This document shows positions 41,016-61,292 of a stretch of DNA of 64,000 bases, in pieces. The stretch is taken from the NCBI GenBank assembly GCA_019746225.1, contig JAIESE010000012.1, forward strand, positions 38,699 to 102,698, given 5' to 3'. The first letter of the stretch is position 1. Every line of letters begins with the position of its first letter. This stretch comes from Alphaproteobacteria bacterium. Lineage in GTDB: Bacteria > Pseudomonadota > Alphaproteobacteria > Paracaedibacterales > VGCI01. The position numbers and the translations under genes were made by a program. The notes under the pieces are model-generated. The model was not told where the DNA came from, searched no databases, and saw nothing but the letters and a program-made list of their open reading frames with translations.

Positions 41016-41155
41016 GAGTGTTACTATACAGACTAGATGACAGAAAGGGAATTTGAAGTTTTGGATTGCCTGTAATTTTTCTCAATGCTAATAATTGACG
41101 TATACATAAGGTTTTGGAAATTCTTAAAAATCATTCTAAGGAACCGATTTTATCA

Positions 41156-42223
41156 ATGCTGACAAGTGCTTCAAACATCATGAAAATTATTGCGAACGGC
41201 GCTTTTTTTGGTTGTCTACTTTTGTTAATTTCGTGTTCGAAGGAAGAAAAAAAAGACATCAAAGTTGTTGAAGTTGAAAAGGCTTCTCGCAAGGATATTA
41301 CTCAAACCGTTCGCTTGATTGGAACCATTCAAGCTAAAAGATCTACCCTCTTGATCGCTAAAACTATTGGTACTTTAGATTATGTGGCTTTTCCAGGTCA
41401 GAAAATATTGAAGAAGAATGTCATTGCAAAATTAGAGAACATGGATCTTGAGCAGACCTATTTCCTTTCGGAAAGCGCAGAAAAAAATGCGAGAGATCAG
41501 TATGAGCGTATGGTGCAGTTGGAAAAGTCAAAGCTTGCCAAGAAGCAGGATGTTGAGGACCGAAAGAACCAGTGGATTGATGCTCAAAAAGCTTTAAATT
41601 CAGCGCGTATTGAGTTTGACAAAACCCGATTCATTGCTCCCTTTGATGGTATCGTTGGGAGTTTTAAAAGAAGAGAAGGGGTTCAAGTACAGGTCGGCGA
41701 TCCCATCGTTAGTTTTTATGACCCGACTGAGCTTATCGTTGAATTTGATATTCCCTCGCCTATCTTGAAAGTTATTCAAGAGGATGCCGGTAAGGTTCAG
41801 GAGGTGATCATTGATGGCGAAAAGATTGATGTTCCTCATATTCAAAAAATGATTGATCCAGATACCCATATGTCCCCCGCCTATGTTAATTTTTCTTGTG
41901 ATAATTGTGTGATTGGATCAAATATTACCCTTGATCTTGTGGTGGCACAGCATCGAAATGTTTTGGTAGTTCCTGTTGACAGCACTTTCTTTCGAGATGG
42001 AAAGACTCATGTTTATCTAGTTAAAGATAACAAAGCTGTGTTATGTCCCATAGCCTTTGGGATTCGTGAAAAAGATTCTGTTGAGATTACATCAGGCCTT
42101 TCAGAAGGTGATACCTTGATTATACGGGGTCATGAGCGCCTATCCCCAGATACCGATGTCAAAATTTTTCAGCCTGCCCCTGTAGGAAAGACTTCGCCTG
42201 AAAAGAAACCAGTTGCTCCATGA
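41156..42223 (+). CDS. RND efflux periplasmic adaptor, lipoprotein
   Basis: A membrane-fusion protein of 355 residues counted from ATG 41156 (the frame opens at a TTG at 41114; ATG 41180 is also possible). The N-terminus has a lipobox, LLLLISCSKEE, so the protein should be lipid-anchored. The lipoyl-like halves (TIGTLDYVAFPGQKILKKNVIAK and FIAPFDGIVGSF) flank a short alpha hairpin, followed by beta-barrel and membrane-proximal domains. It links the inner-membrane pump with an outer-membrane channel. Its stop overlaps the pump start (ATGA). No TolC-like gene is in the window. Confidence 0.92.
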   Translation: MLTSASNIMKIIANGAFFGCLLLLISCSKEEKKDIKVVEVEKASRKDITQTVRLIGTIQAKRSTLLIAKTIGTLDYVAFPGQKILKKNVIAKLENMDLEQTYFLSESAEKNARDQYERMVQLEKSKLAKKQDVEDRKNQWIDAQKALNSARIEFDKTRFIAPFDGIVGSFKRREGVQVQVGDPIVSFYDPTELIVEFDIPSPILKVIQEDAGKVQEVIIDGEKIDVPHIQKMIDPDTHMSPAYVNFSCDNCVIGSNITLDLVVAQHRNVLVVPVDSTFFRDGKTHVYLVKDNKAVLCPIAFGIREKDSVEITSGLSEGDTLIIRGHERLSPDTDVKIFQPAPVGKTSPEKKPVAP

Positions 42224-45200
42224 ACTTTACTTCTTTTTTCATCAAACATCCGGTTACGGCAACCATCTTGAACGTCATGATTCTTGTTGTTGGATTGTTG
42301 AGTCTGAAGACAATTTCTGTGCGCGAATATCCGGAAATAAAACTCCCGAGTTTTGTGGTTTGGGCGCATTATCCCAATGCCAGTGCGGAGCTGGTGGAGT
42401 CGGCTCTCACCAACGTTTTGGAGGATCAGCTCGCTGGGGTTGAAGGGGTTGAGACGATGACGTCTCATTCCACCCAAGGCGCCTGCAACATTGATCTTAT
42501 TTTTGTGGAAGGAACGTCTGTTGAGCGGGCTCTCATTGCTGTAAGAGATGCCATTGCTTTGGCACGATCGGAGTTACCCAAAGACATACCGGAGCCCGTT
42601 GTTCAACAAAGGACAAAGTCGAATGGTCCTCCTTTTATGGCAATTTCGGTGTCTTCCAAGACATTAAATATTGGGGATCTCACTCATTATGTAAACTTGA
42701 ATCTTAAAAATGCTTTTAGAAGCTTGAAAGGAGTTGCTGCGGTTGAAGTGTGGGGTCAACCGTATACAATGACGGTCTCCCTTGATCCCCAGAAACTCTA
42801 TTCCTTTGGCATTAATGCAGACGATGTTTTCACGGCTATTGAAAAAAATAATTTATCTTGGCCGGTTGGTAAGTTTCGAAATGATGTTCCAACAACAATG
42901 GATTTGAGTCTATCTTCTGTGGCAGATTTTGAAGATTTATTTATTAAAGATAACAATGGGAAACCCATATTTTTACGTTCGATTGCTGACGTTCAGCTCA
43001 AAACCAACACAAAAACAATGCTCACAAAGATCAACGGAAAGCCAGGTCTTATCCTTGGCATTTCCCGAACGAACGATTCAAATCCCTTAAATGTTTCTGA
43101 GCTGGTGAGTGAGCAAGTTGAGCATTTGAAGCAGACGCTTCGAAGCGATATGGTCCTTGAGGTTGTTCTGGATCAAGCGGACTTTATTCGCGCTTCGTTA
43201 AGTAACATTCAAAACTCTATTATTGAGGCCATCTTACTTGTTCTGGTCATCGTTTTCTTATTTTTAAGAAATATTCGAGCAACCCTTATTCCTTTAATAG
43301 CGGTTCCAATTTCTCTTGTTGGGTCTGTTATCTTGTTGAAAATATTTGGCTTTTCGATTAACACAATCACCTTGTTAGCCATGGTTTTGGCCATTGGTCT
43401 TGTGGTGGATGATGCAATTGTGGTTTTGGAGAACATCGAGAGACACCTTGCCAATGGGATGAAACCTCTTAAGGCTGCCCTGGAGGGAAGTCGGGAAATT
43501 GGGTTTGCGATTGTGGCCATGACGTTGACCCTTGCCAGTGTTTATGCCCCTATTGCCTTTATTCAAGGGGCCGTTGGCCAATTGTTTGTTGAGTTTGCTG
43601 TAGCCCTTGCGGGGAGTGTACTCATTTCTGGAATGGTAGCATTGACTCTGTCGCCTCTCATGTGTGGAAAAATACTCCGTCATGAAAAAAAGCGCCTCTT
43701 TCCAAAGATTGATGACTTTTTTGGCGCAACGGAAAAATTTTATGTCAGAAGTTTGAATCAGTCACTCGCCCATCCTCGGGTCGTTCTTTCAATTGCGGGA
43801 GGGACCTTTCTTTCTTTAATCTTTTTATTTTCGCATCTTCCTTCCGAAATTGCCCCCAAAGAGGATCGGGGTCTTATGGGGGTTTATTTGCCCCGTATTC
43901 CTGGAAAAGACGTCAATGCTCTTGCCCCTTACGTTGCTCAAATTGAAGAGCAGGTAAAAGACATTCCCGAAGGTAAGGGGTATTTGGCCTTTATGGGGGA
44001 GTGGGGTGGTAACGTGATTCTGTCTTTAAAGCCCCATGAAGAAAGACGTGTTTCGACAGAAGCTGTTGTTGAACGAATTCGCCCCCAGATGGTGGATCTC
44101 CCGTCGATTGACGCACACACGTGGAGTTGGGAATCAGGGTTACCTGGTTTAGATGATGCAGTAACCGGGGGAGAGTTAACGTTGGCTATCTCTTCCATCG
44201 GAAGTTATCGCGATCTCTTCGACCAGGTCGAGAAAGCCAAAAAGGCCATTGAGGATAAGAAGATCTTTCAATACGTGAACCATAATCTCATGCTTAATAC
44301 GCCTGGCTATTCTGTTCTCCTTGACCCAAACACTGTTTCGCGTCTTGGTTTTACCCCTTTTCAAATTTCGAAAATGATCGAGGTGTTTTTCAGTGGCCAA
44401 CAGTCTCTCCATTTCCAGAAGGATGGGATCCGATATCAAATTACCCTAGAGGGAAAACCAGCGCCCTGGACGTTGGATGAATTGTACCTCACAAACGCAA
44501 AAGGAAAGAGAATTTCTCTTGGGACCCTCGGGGAACTTAAGTCCTCTGTTATGCCGAAAGAGTTGATTCACTTTAACCAGATGCGTTCTGTATCTCTTTC
44601 TGCGGGTTTAATGCCGGACCAAAAAATCAAGGCAGCGATGCCTCAGTTTTGGAAGCTGGCGTCTGAATCACTTTCTCCTGAACTAAAAAAAGAATGGACG
44701 GGAGCAGGCAAGTTGTACACAAAGTCTTCGTTGGCGATGGTTCTTTTGTTTGGGATGGCGCTCATTTTCATTTATGCCATTTTAGCCATTCAATTTGAGA
44801 ATTTCCTTGATCCCTTTATTATCATGCTAACCGTGCCGTTGGGGTGCTTTGGAGCCTTGGTTACGGCGTGGGTGTTTGGGCAGTCGTTGAACATTTATAC
44901 TCAGATCGGGCTTGTGACCCTGATCGGTTTGATCACCAAGCACGGTATCCTCATTGTTGAATTTGCCAACCAATTGATTGCGGCTGGAAAAAGCGTTGAA
45001 GAGGCGATTCGCGAGGCGGCACGCTTGCGCTTGCGGCCCATTCTTATGACAACAGGCGCGATGGTTTTTGGAGCATTGCCATTAATTTTGTCCTCAGGGG
45101 CAGGTATCGAGGCCCGCCGAGCGATAGGCTTGGTGCTCGTCGGCGGGCTCACGTTTGGAACATGCTTCACATTGCTGATCTTGCCTAAGCTGTATCACTT

Positions 45201-45237
45201 ATTGAAAACGATGAGATTAAAAGTTAAATCTGTCTGA
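42220..45237 (+). CDS. RND multidrug efflux pump, HAE1 type
   Basis: A 1005-residue inner-membrane antiporter of the AcrB/MexB superfamily. It begins TSFFIKHPVTATILNVMILVVG, has large periplasmic loops after helices 1 and 7, and carries the proton-relay helix 4 with LAIGLVVDDAIVVLENIERH. The second half repeats the pattern (ITKHGILIVEFANQ, RLRPILMTTGAMVFGALPL). The layout fits drug or metabolite efflux. Substrate is unknown. It forms a two-gene operon with the adaptor. The 3' end overlaps the convergent F-box-like gene by 14 bases. Confidence 0.95.
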   Translation: MNFTSFFIKHPVTATILNVMILVVGLLSLKTISVREYPEIKLPSFVVWAHYPNASAELVESALTNVLEDQLAGVEGVETMTSHSTQGACNIDLIFVEGTSVERALIAVRDAIALARSELPKDIPEPVVQQRTKSNGPPFMAISVSSKTLNIGDLTHYVNLNLKNAFRSLKGVAAVEVWGQPYTMTVSLDPQKLYSFGINADDVFTAIEKNNLSWPVGKFRNDVPTTMDLSLSSVADFEDLFIKDNNGKPIFLRSIADVQLKTNTKTMLTKINGKPGLILGISRTNDSNPLNVSELVSEQVEHLKQTLRSDMVLEVVLDQADFIRASLSNIQNSIIEAILLVLVIVFLFLRNIRATLIPLIAVPISLVGSVILLKIFGFSINTITLLAMVLAIGLVVDDAIVVLENIERHLANGMKPLKAALEGSREIGFAIVAMTLTLASVYAPIAFIQGAVGQLFVEFAVALAGSVLISGMVALTLSPLMCGKILRHEKKRLFPKIDDFFGATEKFYVRSLNQSLAHPRVVLSIAGGTFLSLIFLFSHLPSEIAPKEDRGLMGVYLPRIPGKDVNALAPYVAQIEEQVKDIPEGKGYLAFMGEWGGNVILSLKPHEERRVSTEAVVERIRPQMVDLPSIDAHTWSWESGLPGLDDAVTGGELTLAISSIGSYRDLFDQVEKAKKAIEDKKIFQYVNHNLMLNTPGYSVLLDPNTVSRLGFTPFQISKMIEVFFSGQQSLHFQKDGIRYQITLEGKPAPWTLDELYLTNAKGKRISLGTLGELKSSVMPKELIHFNQMRSVSLSAGLMPDQKIKAAMPQFWKLASESLSPELKKEWTGAGKLYTKSSLAMVLLFGMALIFIYAILAIQFENFLDPFIIMLTVPLGCFGALVTAWVFGQSLNIYTQIGLVTLIGLITKHGILIVEFANQLIAAGKSVEEAIREAARLRLRPILMTTGAMVFGALPLILSSGAGIEARRAIGLVLVGGLTFGTCFTLLILPKLYHLLKTMRLKVKSV

Positions 45238-45892
45238 ATTTTTCTAATAGAACAGTTAGAGAGTCTTTCGTATAATTAAGTTGTTGTTCTGCCAGTCGTA
45301 TATTATATCCAGCGAAAAGAGTTTGATTTTCTTGAAGGTAAACAACTTTTACCCCTTCGAATTGACTTGTTATATGAATCACCTTAAATACACAATCCAG
45401 TAACTGTCCGTTAGATTTAATGAGGTTGTCTTTTACGAGGCAAAATATGGGGTCTATCCAATTGAGTGGATTTTGTATCGGTGTTTCAATACCTTCACAA
45501 GGCAATCCCATTCCTTTGAGGGTCTGTGGATCAAGTTCAAGCAAGCTAGGCTTGCTTAGATTTGTCTTTAAATAACCCTCTTCAACCAAAAAATTGAAAT
45601 ACCTTGAAACTCTGAATTTGACTATGGTTTTTAAATCAAGATGCCTAAATACGGATTTTGTCATTATCTCAAATGGTACCTTAGCAAGGGGACCTGCGGC
45701 AGTAATCATTTCATCAGATATTTCAACAGTACCTAGAGCTAAACCGGGTTGGGTTTCTGAGGTTAGAGTTTGTGGAGTCTTAGCTTCCTCCGTAAGAGGG
45801 TTTTCCTCGGTGGATAAGGCTGGATGTGTCATTTGGGAGAGTACAAGCGCCAAAGGCACAACAGCCAAAATTCCTTTCATACTATTCTTCAT
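45224..45892 (-). CDS. Exported protein with F-box-like motif
   Basis: A 222-residue protein with a signal peptide (KGILAVVPLALVLSQMTHPALS). After a disordered Thr/Glu linker, residues 71-105 match the F-box pattern: VPFEIMTKSVFRHLDLKTIVKFRVSRYFNFL, to be compared with LPxEILxxIFxxLxxxDLxxxxxVSxxFxxL (the hydrophobic spacing and the Val-Ser-Arg are right). The remaining 115 residues have no recognised fold. F-boxes recruit Skp1 in eukaryotic ubiquitin ligases and occur in effectors of intracellular bacteria. A signal peptide plus an F-box suggests secretion towards a host, but this rests on pattern matching by eye. AAGGATT lies before the start. Confidence 0.65.
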   Translation of the reverse strand: MKNSMKGILAVVPLALVLSQMTHPALSTEENPLTEEAKTPQTLTSETQPGLALGTVEISDEMITAAGPLAKVPFEIMTKSVFRHLDLKTIVKFRVSRYFNFLVEEGYLKTNLSKPSLLELDPQTLKGMGLPCEGIETPIQNPLNWIDPIFCLVKDNLIKSNGQLLDCVFKVIHITSQFEGVKVVYLQENQTLFAGYNIRLAEQQLNYTKDSLTVLLEKFRQI

Positions 45893-46253
45893 TTTTGAAT
45901 CCTTTAATTTGGGTTTGCTTTAACGACCTGATGTAAATAAAGGTCGCTAATTTATATTAATACTTTGCAAAAGATAATTTTCTCAAGTAGCGTTATATAT
46001 AACCAGTGAATTCATATTTTGCAATACCGTAAAAATACGCTAGTTTCAAACTATTCAGATAGATGAAGCAACATAATCAAAGGAATTATTTAACTTTTGC
46101 AGAGGTTTTTATATGATTTATTTGGGCATTTGCCTAATAGGGAAATACACACCTCTATGGAGTGCATAAGAAGTATTTATCATGTTTCAAGTCAATGTAT
46201 CAACAAATAATACTCTGAAAACAAATGGATCGCTGTGCTGTCTTTTATGAAAA
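45893..46253. other. AT-rich gap without supported gene
   Basis: 361 bases between the F-box-like gene and dsbB, carrying the promoter region of the former. One short stem-loop (CGACC...GGTCG near 45925-45945) is the only structure noticed. No ORF with a ribosome-binding site. Confidence 0.4.
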
Positions 46254-52270: not shown

Positions 52271-52819
52271 TTAGTTTTTTTGAGATTGAAGCGCTAAGAG
52301 ACGATTTTGCTCATCCAAGAATACTTTAAGATTTCTCGCATCTTCCATTAACTTTTCCCAATTATCGAGACCTGGTCCATACTCCATAAAGTGTCCACCC
52401 AAGTCATTAATATTGGCAAAGCCGCGTACATTTTTGAGTTCCATGAGCCGCTTAATATTTCCGTTGTTGAAAGCAATCTCAAATTCATAAATAAATCGAA
52501 TAAAGTTTGCATTCAAATCCGTCGTTTTACAGACTTCTCTGGCATCAGAAATTAATAAATCCCAATTGTCGAGCGAAGAGCCATAACGAGAGAACCCTGG
52601 GCCCATGTCATTAATATTAGCAAAACCAGGAGTTTTCCTCAGGCTTTCTAATTTTGCAACATCTCCGCTAAGGAATGCTTGGTGAAATTCTCTTGTAGAT
52701 TCTTCCCAACTCTTCTGAGCGGTCATCGTGCTTACTTCAGAAACACCTTCTTCCATAGCAAAAGATGAAATGGATATAAAAGCGCTCAGGGCAATGGATG
52801 TGTAAATAGATTTTTTCAT
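52271..52819 (-). CDS. Exported protein with two tandem 50-residue repeats
   Basis: A 182-residue protein with a signal peptide (IYTSIALSAFISISSFA). It contains two clear copies of one unit at about residues 45-95 and 113-163: each reads F-x2-AF-x-GD/GN-x3-L-x2-L-x5-GFANINDxG, then YGxxLDNWxxLxxDAR. The unit is like an ankyrin helix pair in size but lacks the TPLHxA motif, so I do not call it ankyrin. AAGGATT gives the start. A periplasmic or secreted binding protein is plausible. No family recognised. Confidence 0.72.
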   Translation of the reverse strand: MKKSIYTSIALSAFISISSFAMEEGVSEVSTMTAQKSWEESTREFHQAFLSGDVAKLESLRKTPGFANINDMGPGFSRYGSSLDNWDLLISDAREVCKTTDLNANFIRFIYEFEIAFNNGNIKRLMELKNVRGFANINDLGGHFMEYGPGLDNWEKLMEDARNLKVFLDEQNRLLALQSQKN

Positions 52820-60614: not shown

Positions 60615-61292
60615 CTACTTTGAATTTTCCATTTGAGCTAGTTTTAAGTCTTCTGCCCTTGGACTGGTCGCTTCACTCGTGCTTCCCTTGCTTACTCTCG
60701 GGCTAATCGTGTCTCTGGGGCTCGACCTTGAACTTCCCCCCGGGGTTCTGGGGCTTTTATGTGGACTATTAGGTCCATTGGATTGGAGGCTTCCTGAAGT
60801 ACTGCGCCCAAGACCTGTCGAAAGTTTATCTTGGTTGCCCAAATTGCCTGATTTTCGGCGGCCTAGTTGATCAAGAGGACTTGACGAACTTCCAGATTTT
60901 CTTCTGCGGGCATCATCGTTTGGTGTTTTTCTGAGGCGGACTTCTTTTTGTGCGTCTACACCCCCCTTCGAGTCTGCTACAAGGGCCGCTAAAGCCTCTG
61001 GGTCCATAATATAGGAGGGTTTGCTTAAACTATCTCCTACACTTAATGCAGGGTCTGATTTTCTTCGCCCCCCACCAAGCTGTGAAAAGGATGTTGGGCC
61101 CTTTGAGTCGGCGGAGCCCCTTTTGTCTGATGGACTCATTAATTCTTTTAACTTATCATCTTTTTTTGGATTTTCAGACCCTTGCGATCTTCCAAAAAAT
61201 CTCCGTCGTGTGTCCTTCTCTTTTTCTGTTGCTTGTACGATTGATATCACGAGAGAAAAAGATAACAGTAAGGCACCAAACTTTTTTAACAT
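60615..61292 (-). CDS. Exported Ser/Arg/Pro-rich low-complexity protein
   Basis: A 225-residue protein with a signal peptide (KKFGALLLSFSLVISIVQA). The rest is predicted disordered and rich in Ser, Arg, Gly and Pro. It repeats RRKS (GGGRRKSDPAL, ARRRKSGSSSS, LGRRKSGNLG) and SPR (HKSPRTPGG, RSSPRDTISPRV, ATSPRAED). The same motifs occur in the larger gene 61 bases upstream on the same strand, and both share a TFAQL/SFSQL...GG patch. No known family. CAGGAGAG gives the start. The motifs look like eukaryotic basophilic kinase sites, so an effector is possible. Confidence 0.68.
   Translation of the reverse strand: MLKKFGALLLSFSLVISIVQATEKEKDTRRRFFGRSQGSENPKKDDKLKELMSPSDKRGSADSKGPTSFSQLGGGRRKSDPALSVGDSLSKPSYIMDPEALAALVADSKGGVDAQKEVRLRKTPNDDARRRKSGSSSSPLDQLGRRKSGNLGNQDKLSTGLGRSTSGSLQSNGPNSPHKSPRTPGGSSRSSPRDTISPRVSKGSTSEATSPRAEDLKLAQMENSK

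Follow-up and report, generated by a model that had tools for sequence, protein, structure and literature searches.

Within the 64,000-nucleotide stretch of alphaproteobacterial DNA analysed here (henceforth the window), the minus strand encodes at 45224..45892 a protein of 222 amino acids in which a predicted signal peptide precedes a segment that, judging by its match to profiles built from F-box proteins of related bacteria, is probably a divergent F-box by descent, the F-box being a eukaryotic adaptor used in protein degradation. An earlier sequence-only reading of this DNA had proposed a signal-peptide protein with an F-box-like motif, possibly an effector that uses host Skp1; the F-box that it recognised is probably correct, if understood as divergent and not Pfam-certified. 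With a good deal less assurance, we favour the view that the window protein is a Sec-exported divergent F-box protein acting on host Skp1 and that it belongs to a set of such proteins that turns over rapidly in its bacterial order. The signal-peptide F-box repertoire of that order is more notable than the window gene itself.

Lineage profiles and the F-box-like segment

The profiles rest on 95 open reading frames (ORFs) without internal stops, taken from PF12937 and F-box searches of the carrier's own genome and of its order; five further loci (L004, L007, L013, L045 and L049), whose PF00646 or PF12937 matches lie in frames with internal stops, were excluded as members. Removal of one protein that we take to be flagellar-motor-like (L037), and of two more by a filter for duplicate cores and short segments, left 92 segments, of which 77 make up alignment A1 (alignment A2 has 30); the window protein was left out of the 92-segment profile. 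Searched against the PDB, A1 finds 53 sequences at an expectation value (E) of 0.1 or less, with FBXW7 as the best match (2.3e-14) and MgtE (0.05) as the sole non-F-box protein. The other 52 are F-box proteins, most of them named as such and some (KDM2A/B, cyclin F, TIR1, Dia2, ECT2L and C85627) taken to be such, so that the sister proteins, considered together, are true F-boxes on this comparison of sequences.

The 92-segment profile aligns with residues 70-108 of the window protein (45569..45685, minus strand) at 14.0 bits and a single-sequence E of 1.6e-6, a score that one of 20,000 shuffles of the protein equals. The window protein ranks first among the 167 ORFs of the window (14.0 versus 3.8 bits for the next), and none of 1,652 natural decoy ORFs from 63 other loci reaches its score, the best of them standing at 11.0 bits. 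When only the 50 strongest segments are used, none of them from the carrier's own genome, the match scores 10.5 bits with an E of 1.9e-5, a score that 3 of 20,000 shuffles reach, and the 22 order-wide sets among 26 variants of alignment and settings give E values from 9.2e-8 to 1.9e-5. With the whole genus left out (74 segments from other genera, aligned in four ways), the protein still scores 10.2-11.5 bits (E 9.5e-6 to 2.4e-5) and exceeds the top scorer among the 1,652 natural decoys (10.0-10.1 bits) in all four alignments. A comparison of the lineage profile with the window protein by hhalign covers residues 64-108 (P 5.4e-5, probability 66.5), so that a specific F-box profile from related bacteria finds the segment at the place where the sequence-only reading had put it.

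Several results weigh against an F-box here. None of the Pfam F-box models, including PF00646 and PF12937, matches the window protein even at E<=10, neither of these two reaches its gathering score, and NCBIfam and PHROGs also return no match; because this curated-model test failed, the protein is not filed as a Pfam F-box member and is named a divergent F-box-like, Sec-exported protein. The earlier proposal had recommended exactly such a check against PF00646 and PF12937, which turned out negative, and its F-box thus stands as far as the lineage-built profile is concerned while being missed by the curated models. A profile restricted to 18 segments of the genus gives an E of only 0.0014, with 18 of 5,000 and 72 of 20,000 shuffles as good; the four remaining variants of the 26, all built on this 18-segment set, stay at 0.0014-0.0015. 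The leave-genus-out margin is narrow in two of its four alignments (10.2 versus 10.1 or 10.0 bits), the best shuffles there reach 16.1-16.6 bits (1 to 3 of 20,000 being as good as the window protein), and this test taken alone is borderline against natural decoys. Relative to the consensus the window segment has one inserted and one deleted residue; in the alignment, same-genus L020 has the identical one-residue insertion in helix 1. Finally, the window protein is not listed in the A1 search of the carrier's own genome. That search scored 17 first-look candidates only, which may be the cause, and a plain hmmsearch with the same A1 alignment gives the window protein 14.2-14.5 bits.

Structure modelling gave confident helices when family rows were supplied, an input that favours an F-box answer; a single-sequence AlphaFold run on the window protein led nowhere. 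The guided AlphaFold model, to be read with that bias in mind, has helices at residues 74-84, 87-92 and 97-111, block-mean predicted local distance difference test (pLDDT) values of 86-93 over residues 61-110, and F-boxes as its three best solved-structure matches among those listed.

Signal-peptide F-box proteins in the genome, order and class

Is the window protein alone, or does it belong to a wider set? Of the 43 genomes of the order, 16, the carrier's own included, have PF12937 matches at E<=1e-3, as against none of 14 control genomes; 11 of the 16 are over the cut-off, and the maximum is 34 matches, in G023. Five of the 14 controls also match once the threshold is relaxed to E<=0.05, so that weak PF12937 matches alone carry little meaning. 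Copy number is very uneven: G023, G020, G015 and G030 are rich (up to 34), and same-genus G001 has no match at any cut-off applied. Across the class, matches at E<=1e-3 occur in 12 of the 289 genomes sampled, three of them from the order.

The carrier's own genome comprises 2.38 Mb in 76 contigs, and in it PF12937 by itself picks up three more proteins (P0002, P0003 and P0004), weakly, with E values from 1e-4 to 3e-3. Two of the three pass the signal-peptide rule, and the third fails it despite a hydrophobic stretch near its N-terminus. A1 returns three proteins of this genome at 4e-12 to 6e-8 and others at 0.02 and 0.19; the strong scores of P0002, P0003 and P0004 arise by construction, as A1 contains their segments. 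The match at 0.02, found by the lineage profile only and absent from the segments of A1, is a signal-peptide protein on contig C33 (L214:1489-3006); by reading of translations, it combines an F-box-like segment with leucine-rich-like repeats and lies downstream of an ATP-synthase-beta-like gene.

Predicted export recurs across the set. The signal-peptide rule is passed by 74 of the 95 order matches if any start codon before the F-box is allowed and by 65 of the 95 with ATG starts only, and by 33 of 36 matches from other families of the class, these 36 being part of those listed in the class search. Among control ORFs, 98 of 372 pass a slightly different rule that considers the first 70 codons only. 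The rule is our own and crude: in the version used for the ATG-start count it also lets through 24 of the 49 genes of the window, among them many that encode membrane proteins. The window protein resembles the set in having an N-terminal signal peptide by this heuristic, no later membrane segment and an F-box-like segment soon after. Some members also carry leucine-rich-repeat (LRR)-like or tetratricopeptide-repeat (TPR)/Sel1-like repeats by reading, TPR being also weakly found by Pfam; in G003, L021 and L023 join signal peptide, F-box and, by reading, LRR-like repeats, a layout like that of eukaryotic FBXL proteins. The window gene suggests that members of the set can be too diverged for curated models, and counts of such F-box proteins that use Pfam only are for that reason probably too low.

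Gene, carrier and locus

The window gene is a true coding gene and not a chance open frame. It starts with ATG and runs uninterrupted for 222 codons, whereas 2,000 shuffles of its 669 bases yield no ORF longer than 148 amino acids; its other five frames contain 8-20 stops. A Shine-Dalgarno-like AAAGGA, read directly from the sequence, lies at 45900..45905 (minus strand), 7 nucleotides 5' of the ATG. With a GC content of 0.380, and of 0.314 at third codon positions (0.349-0.538 in 16 other measured genes of the window), the gene is AT-rich and looks accessory.

The N-terminus has a positive n-region and a hydrophobic core, with a predicted cleavage after residue 27, in agreement with the signal peptide claimed earlier; this Sec-type signal peptide (residues 1-27, 45812..45892, minus strand) is called by our own simple rule and not by SignalP. 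No membrane-like 17-residue stretch follows it in the window protein (best later hydropathy 0.98). A linker (residues 28-66, 45695..45811, minus strand) leads to the F-box-like segment, the gap from predicted cleavage to profile match being 42 residues; in 74 sisters the median is 43.5 and the range 6-162. The C-terminal region, residues 129-222 (45227..45508, minus strand), has no match in Pfam, NCBIfam or PHROGs, and the C-terminal half of the guided model is of low-to-middling quality (mixed helix and strand, block-mean pLDDT 37-70) with weak and mixed fold matches; the description of this domain as unrecognised has held up.

The carrier is probably a Holosporales-type bacterium and probably associated with protists, perhaps living inside them. 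This assignment is made because its LysS is 88% identical to that of L051, a metagenome-assembled genome (MAG) labelled Candidatus Finniella inopinata, and 69-70% identical to those of L057 and L059, MAGs labelled Candidatus Paracaedibacteraceae, a family that NCBI taxonomy places within Holosporales.

The window gene shares the last 14 bases of its 3' end with an RND efflux gene (Pfam ACR_tran) that converges on it, and a gene named DsbB-like by reading lies upstream; scans for promoters and terminators gave nothing clear. L051 and L052 keep the order GmhA, LysS, DedA, DsbB, TauE (all but TauE named by reading), with the efflux genes and the window gene absent between DsbB and TauE. The RND efflux pair itself (41114-45237 in the window) is absent in these two near relatives. 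A 47-residue remnant of the membrane-fusion gene retained in L052 suggests loss of the efflux genes rather than gain, and L053 has different genes after DsbB. No relative of the window protein was accepted in 143 other related genomes, and a wider search of genome contigs, a collection that may omit records very close to the window, gave 40 pattern-matching stretches and no relative. The sole database relative, in G041 (E 0.003), was rejected as a stretch of a gene named MutS-like by reading. On these comparisons the window gene is an orphan, and the place where it sits is variable.

Two other signal-peptide proteins on the minus strand of the window, at 60615-61292 and 52271-52819, have no Pfam match at E<=0.01: one is basic and serine-rich, and one has two FANINDxG-type motif repeats.

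Proposed role, export and alternative explanations

We propose that the window protein crosses the inner membrane by the Sec route, losing about 27 residues, and that the mature protein presents a divergent three-helix F-box behind a flexible linker, followed by a lineage-specific C-terminal region. A second step, across the outer membrane, might then deliver it into the host cytosol, where the F-box, if it behaves as in other F-box proteins, could bind a protist host's Skp1; these two steps have less support. The C-terminal region would, again by analogy, select a protein for ubiquitination or holding, and the order would possess a whole set of such proteins, with fast turnover, to which the window protein belongs. 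The idea of an effector directed at the host ubiquitin system is strengthened because many sisters of the same layout occur in the carrier's own and in related genomes, and host action of the window protein is plausible. A broader proposal, which we hold only tentatively, is that the Holosporales-type order, together with certain other families of the class, possesses a large, fast-turning set of F-box proteins that are exported by Sec rather than by type III or type IV systems and reach host Skp1 by a second step at the outer membrane, the window gene being among the most diverged.

How could a Sec substrate leave the cell? A secretin-like match at E<=1e-10 occurs in 40 of the 43 genomes of the order and one above the curated cut-off in 0 of 43. 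One of the two secretins of the carrier's own genome lies amid ORFs that resemble a Tad pilus cluster, by reading and not by profile test, and because of this setting no type II system is shown. In the part of the Holosporales review that deals with delivery, a type VI system is favoured as the machine (PMC11909080).

Three other explanations deserve consideration. The protein may be an F-box by descent that has decayed, that is, a member of the set that has lost its binding to Skp1 and either drifts or has been re-purposed. It lacks the curated match that P0002, P0003 and P0004 of its own genome have, its segment combines an insertion with a deletion, no orthologue was found, and it sits at a variable spot where two near relatives have DsbB beside TauE; nevertheless, its 222-codon frame is intact, with a signal peptide and a ribosome-binding site, and L020 shares the insertion in helix 1, and we consider such decay unlikely. 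A chance resemblance, in which an orphan exported protein has a helical hairpin that mimics F-box spacing, appears less likely still. It would suit the lack of a curated match, the weakness of the first, genus-only profile (18 of 5,000 shuffles), the natural decoy at 11.0 bits and the leave-genus-out shuffle at 16.6 bits, as well as the fact that the segment was originally picked among many possible motifs. It fits poorly with a score above those of all 1,652 natural ORFs and the 166 other ORFs of the window, with the robustness of that score to the choice of aligner and removal of the genus, and with a signal-to-F-box distance at the family median.

The F-box-like helices may, alternatively, make their contacts within the bacterial envelope, the protein being periplasmic and not directed at the host. 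The F-box is a eukaryotic interaction module, and the patchiness of the matches in the class (12 of 289 genomes), together with their absence from all 14 controls, fits contact with a host better than envelope housekeeping; we regard a periplasmic role as quite improbable. What speaks for it is that a Sec signal leads to the periplasm and that there is a precedent in RARP-1, an exported ankyrin protein which, according to the relevant part of PMC9553169, reaches the host cytosol via Sec-TolC in one Rickettsia species and is periplasmic in another. The preferred reading remains that of a Sec-exported divergent F-box protein acting on host Skp1.

Comparison with known systems

The part of PMC11909080 concerned with the question describes the action of Holosporales-type symbionts on their protist hosts as poorly understood. 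The many similar exported proteins of the carrier's relatives could tamper with host cells; if the exported F-box family is real, it would supply specific candidates for action on host ubiquitination and raise the question by what route a Sec substrate gets into the cytosol of the host. A literature search on F-box, Holosporales and effector found nothing, with most subscription papers and all bioRxiv preprints outside its coverage, and one on F-box and Paracaedibacter returned, by title, work on Amoebophilus and Cardinium only. Among the literature matches listed, no title or abstract start describes the signal-peptide F-box set of the order, and the term F-box occurs 0 times in the Holosporales review (PMC11909080) and in the paper on the Bodo endosymbiont.

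F-box effectors as such are well known from Chlamydiae (PMC4209131), Amoebophilus (PMC8831229) and Legionella, as far as the parts of these sources that treat them go. Compared with the eukaryotic Skp2, FBXW7 and Cdc4, the window protein is far more divergent in sequence, and Pfam detects neither a WD40 nor an LRR region in it. Legionella AnkB is likewise a bacterial F-box protein, and the order-wide profile matches its solved structure (PDB 5k35_A) at 2.7e-11; AnkB is translocated by the Dot/Icm system, as stated in the relevant portion of PMC2790608. Amoebophilus asiaticus offers the parallel of an amoeba symbiont with F-box proteins thought, in the section of PMC8831229 devoted to them, to act on host ubiquitin; it belongs to a different phylum, and the term 'signal peptide' is absent from the main text of that paper. 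The closest likeness in scale is with the amoeba-infecting Chlamydiae, whose NEX and PEX families, in the portion of PMC4209131 that describes them, are large repertoires, with fast turnover, of F-box proteins of eukaryotic type, some of them repeat-joined, in intracellular bacteria of protists. Unlike the repeat-joined chlamydial members, the window protein, with its 222 residues, has no recognised repeat region, and whereas the tested members of the NEX and PEX families carry functional type III secretion signals (PMC4209131), the proteins of the order studied here have predicted Sec-type signal peptides.
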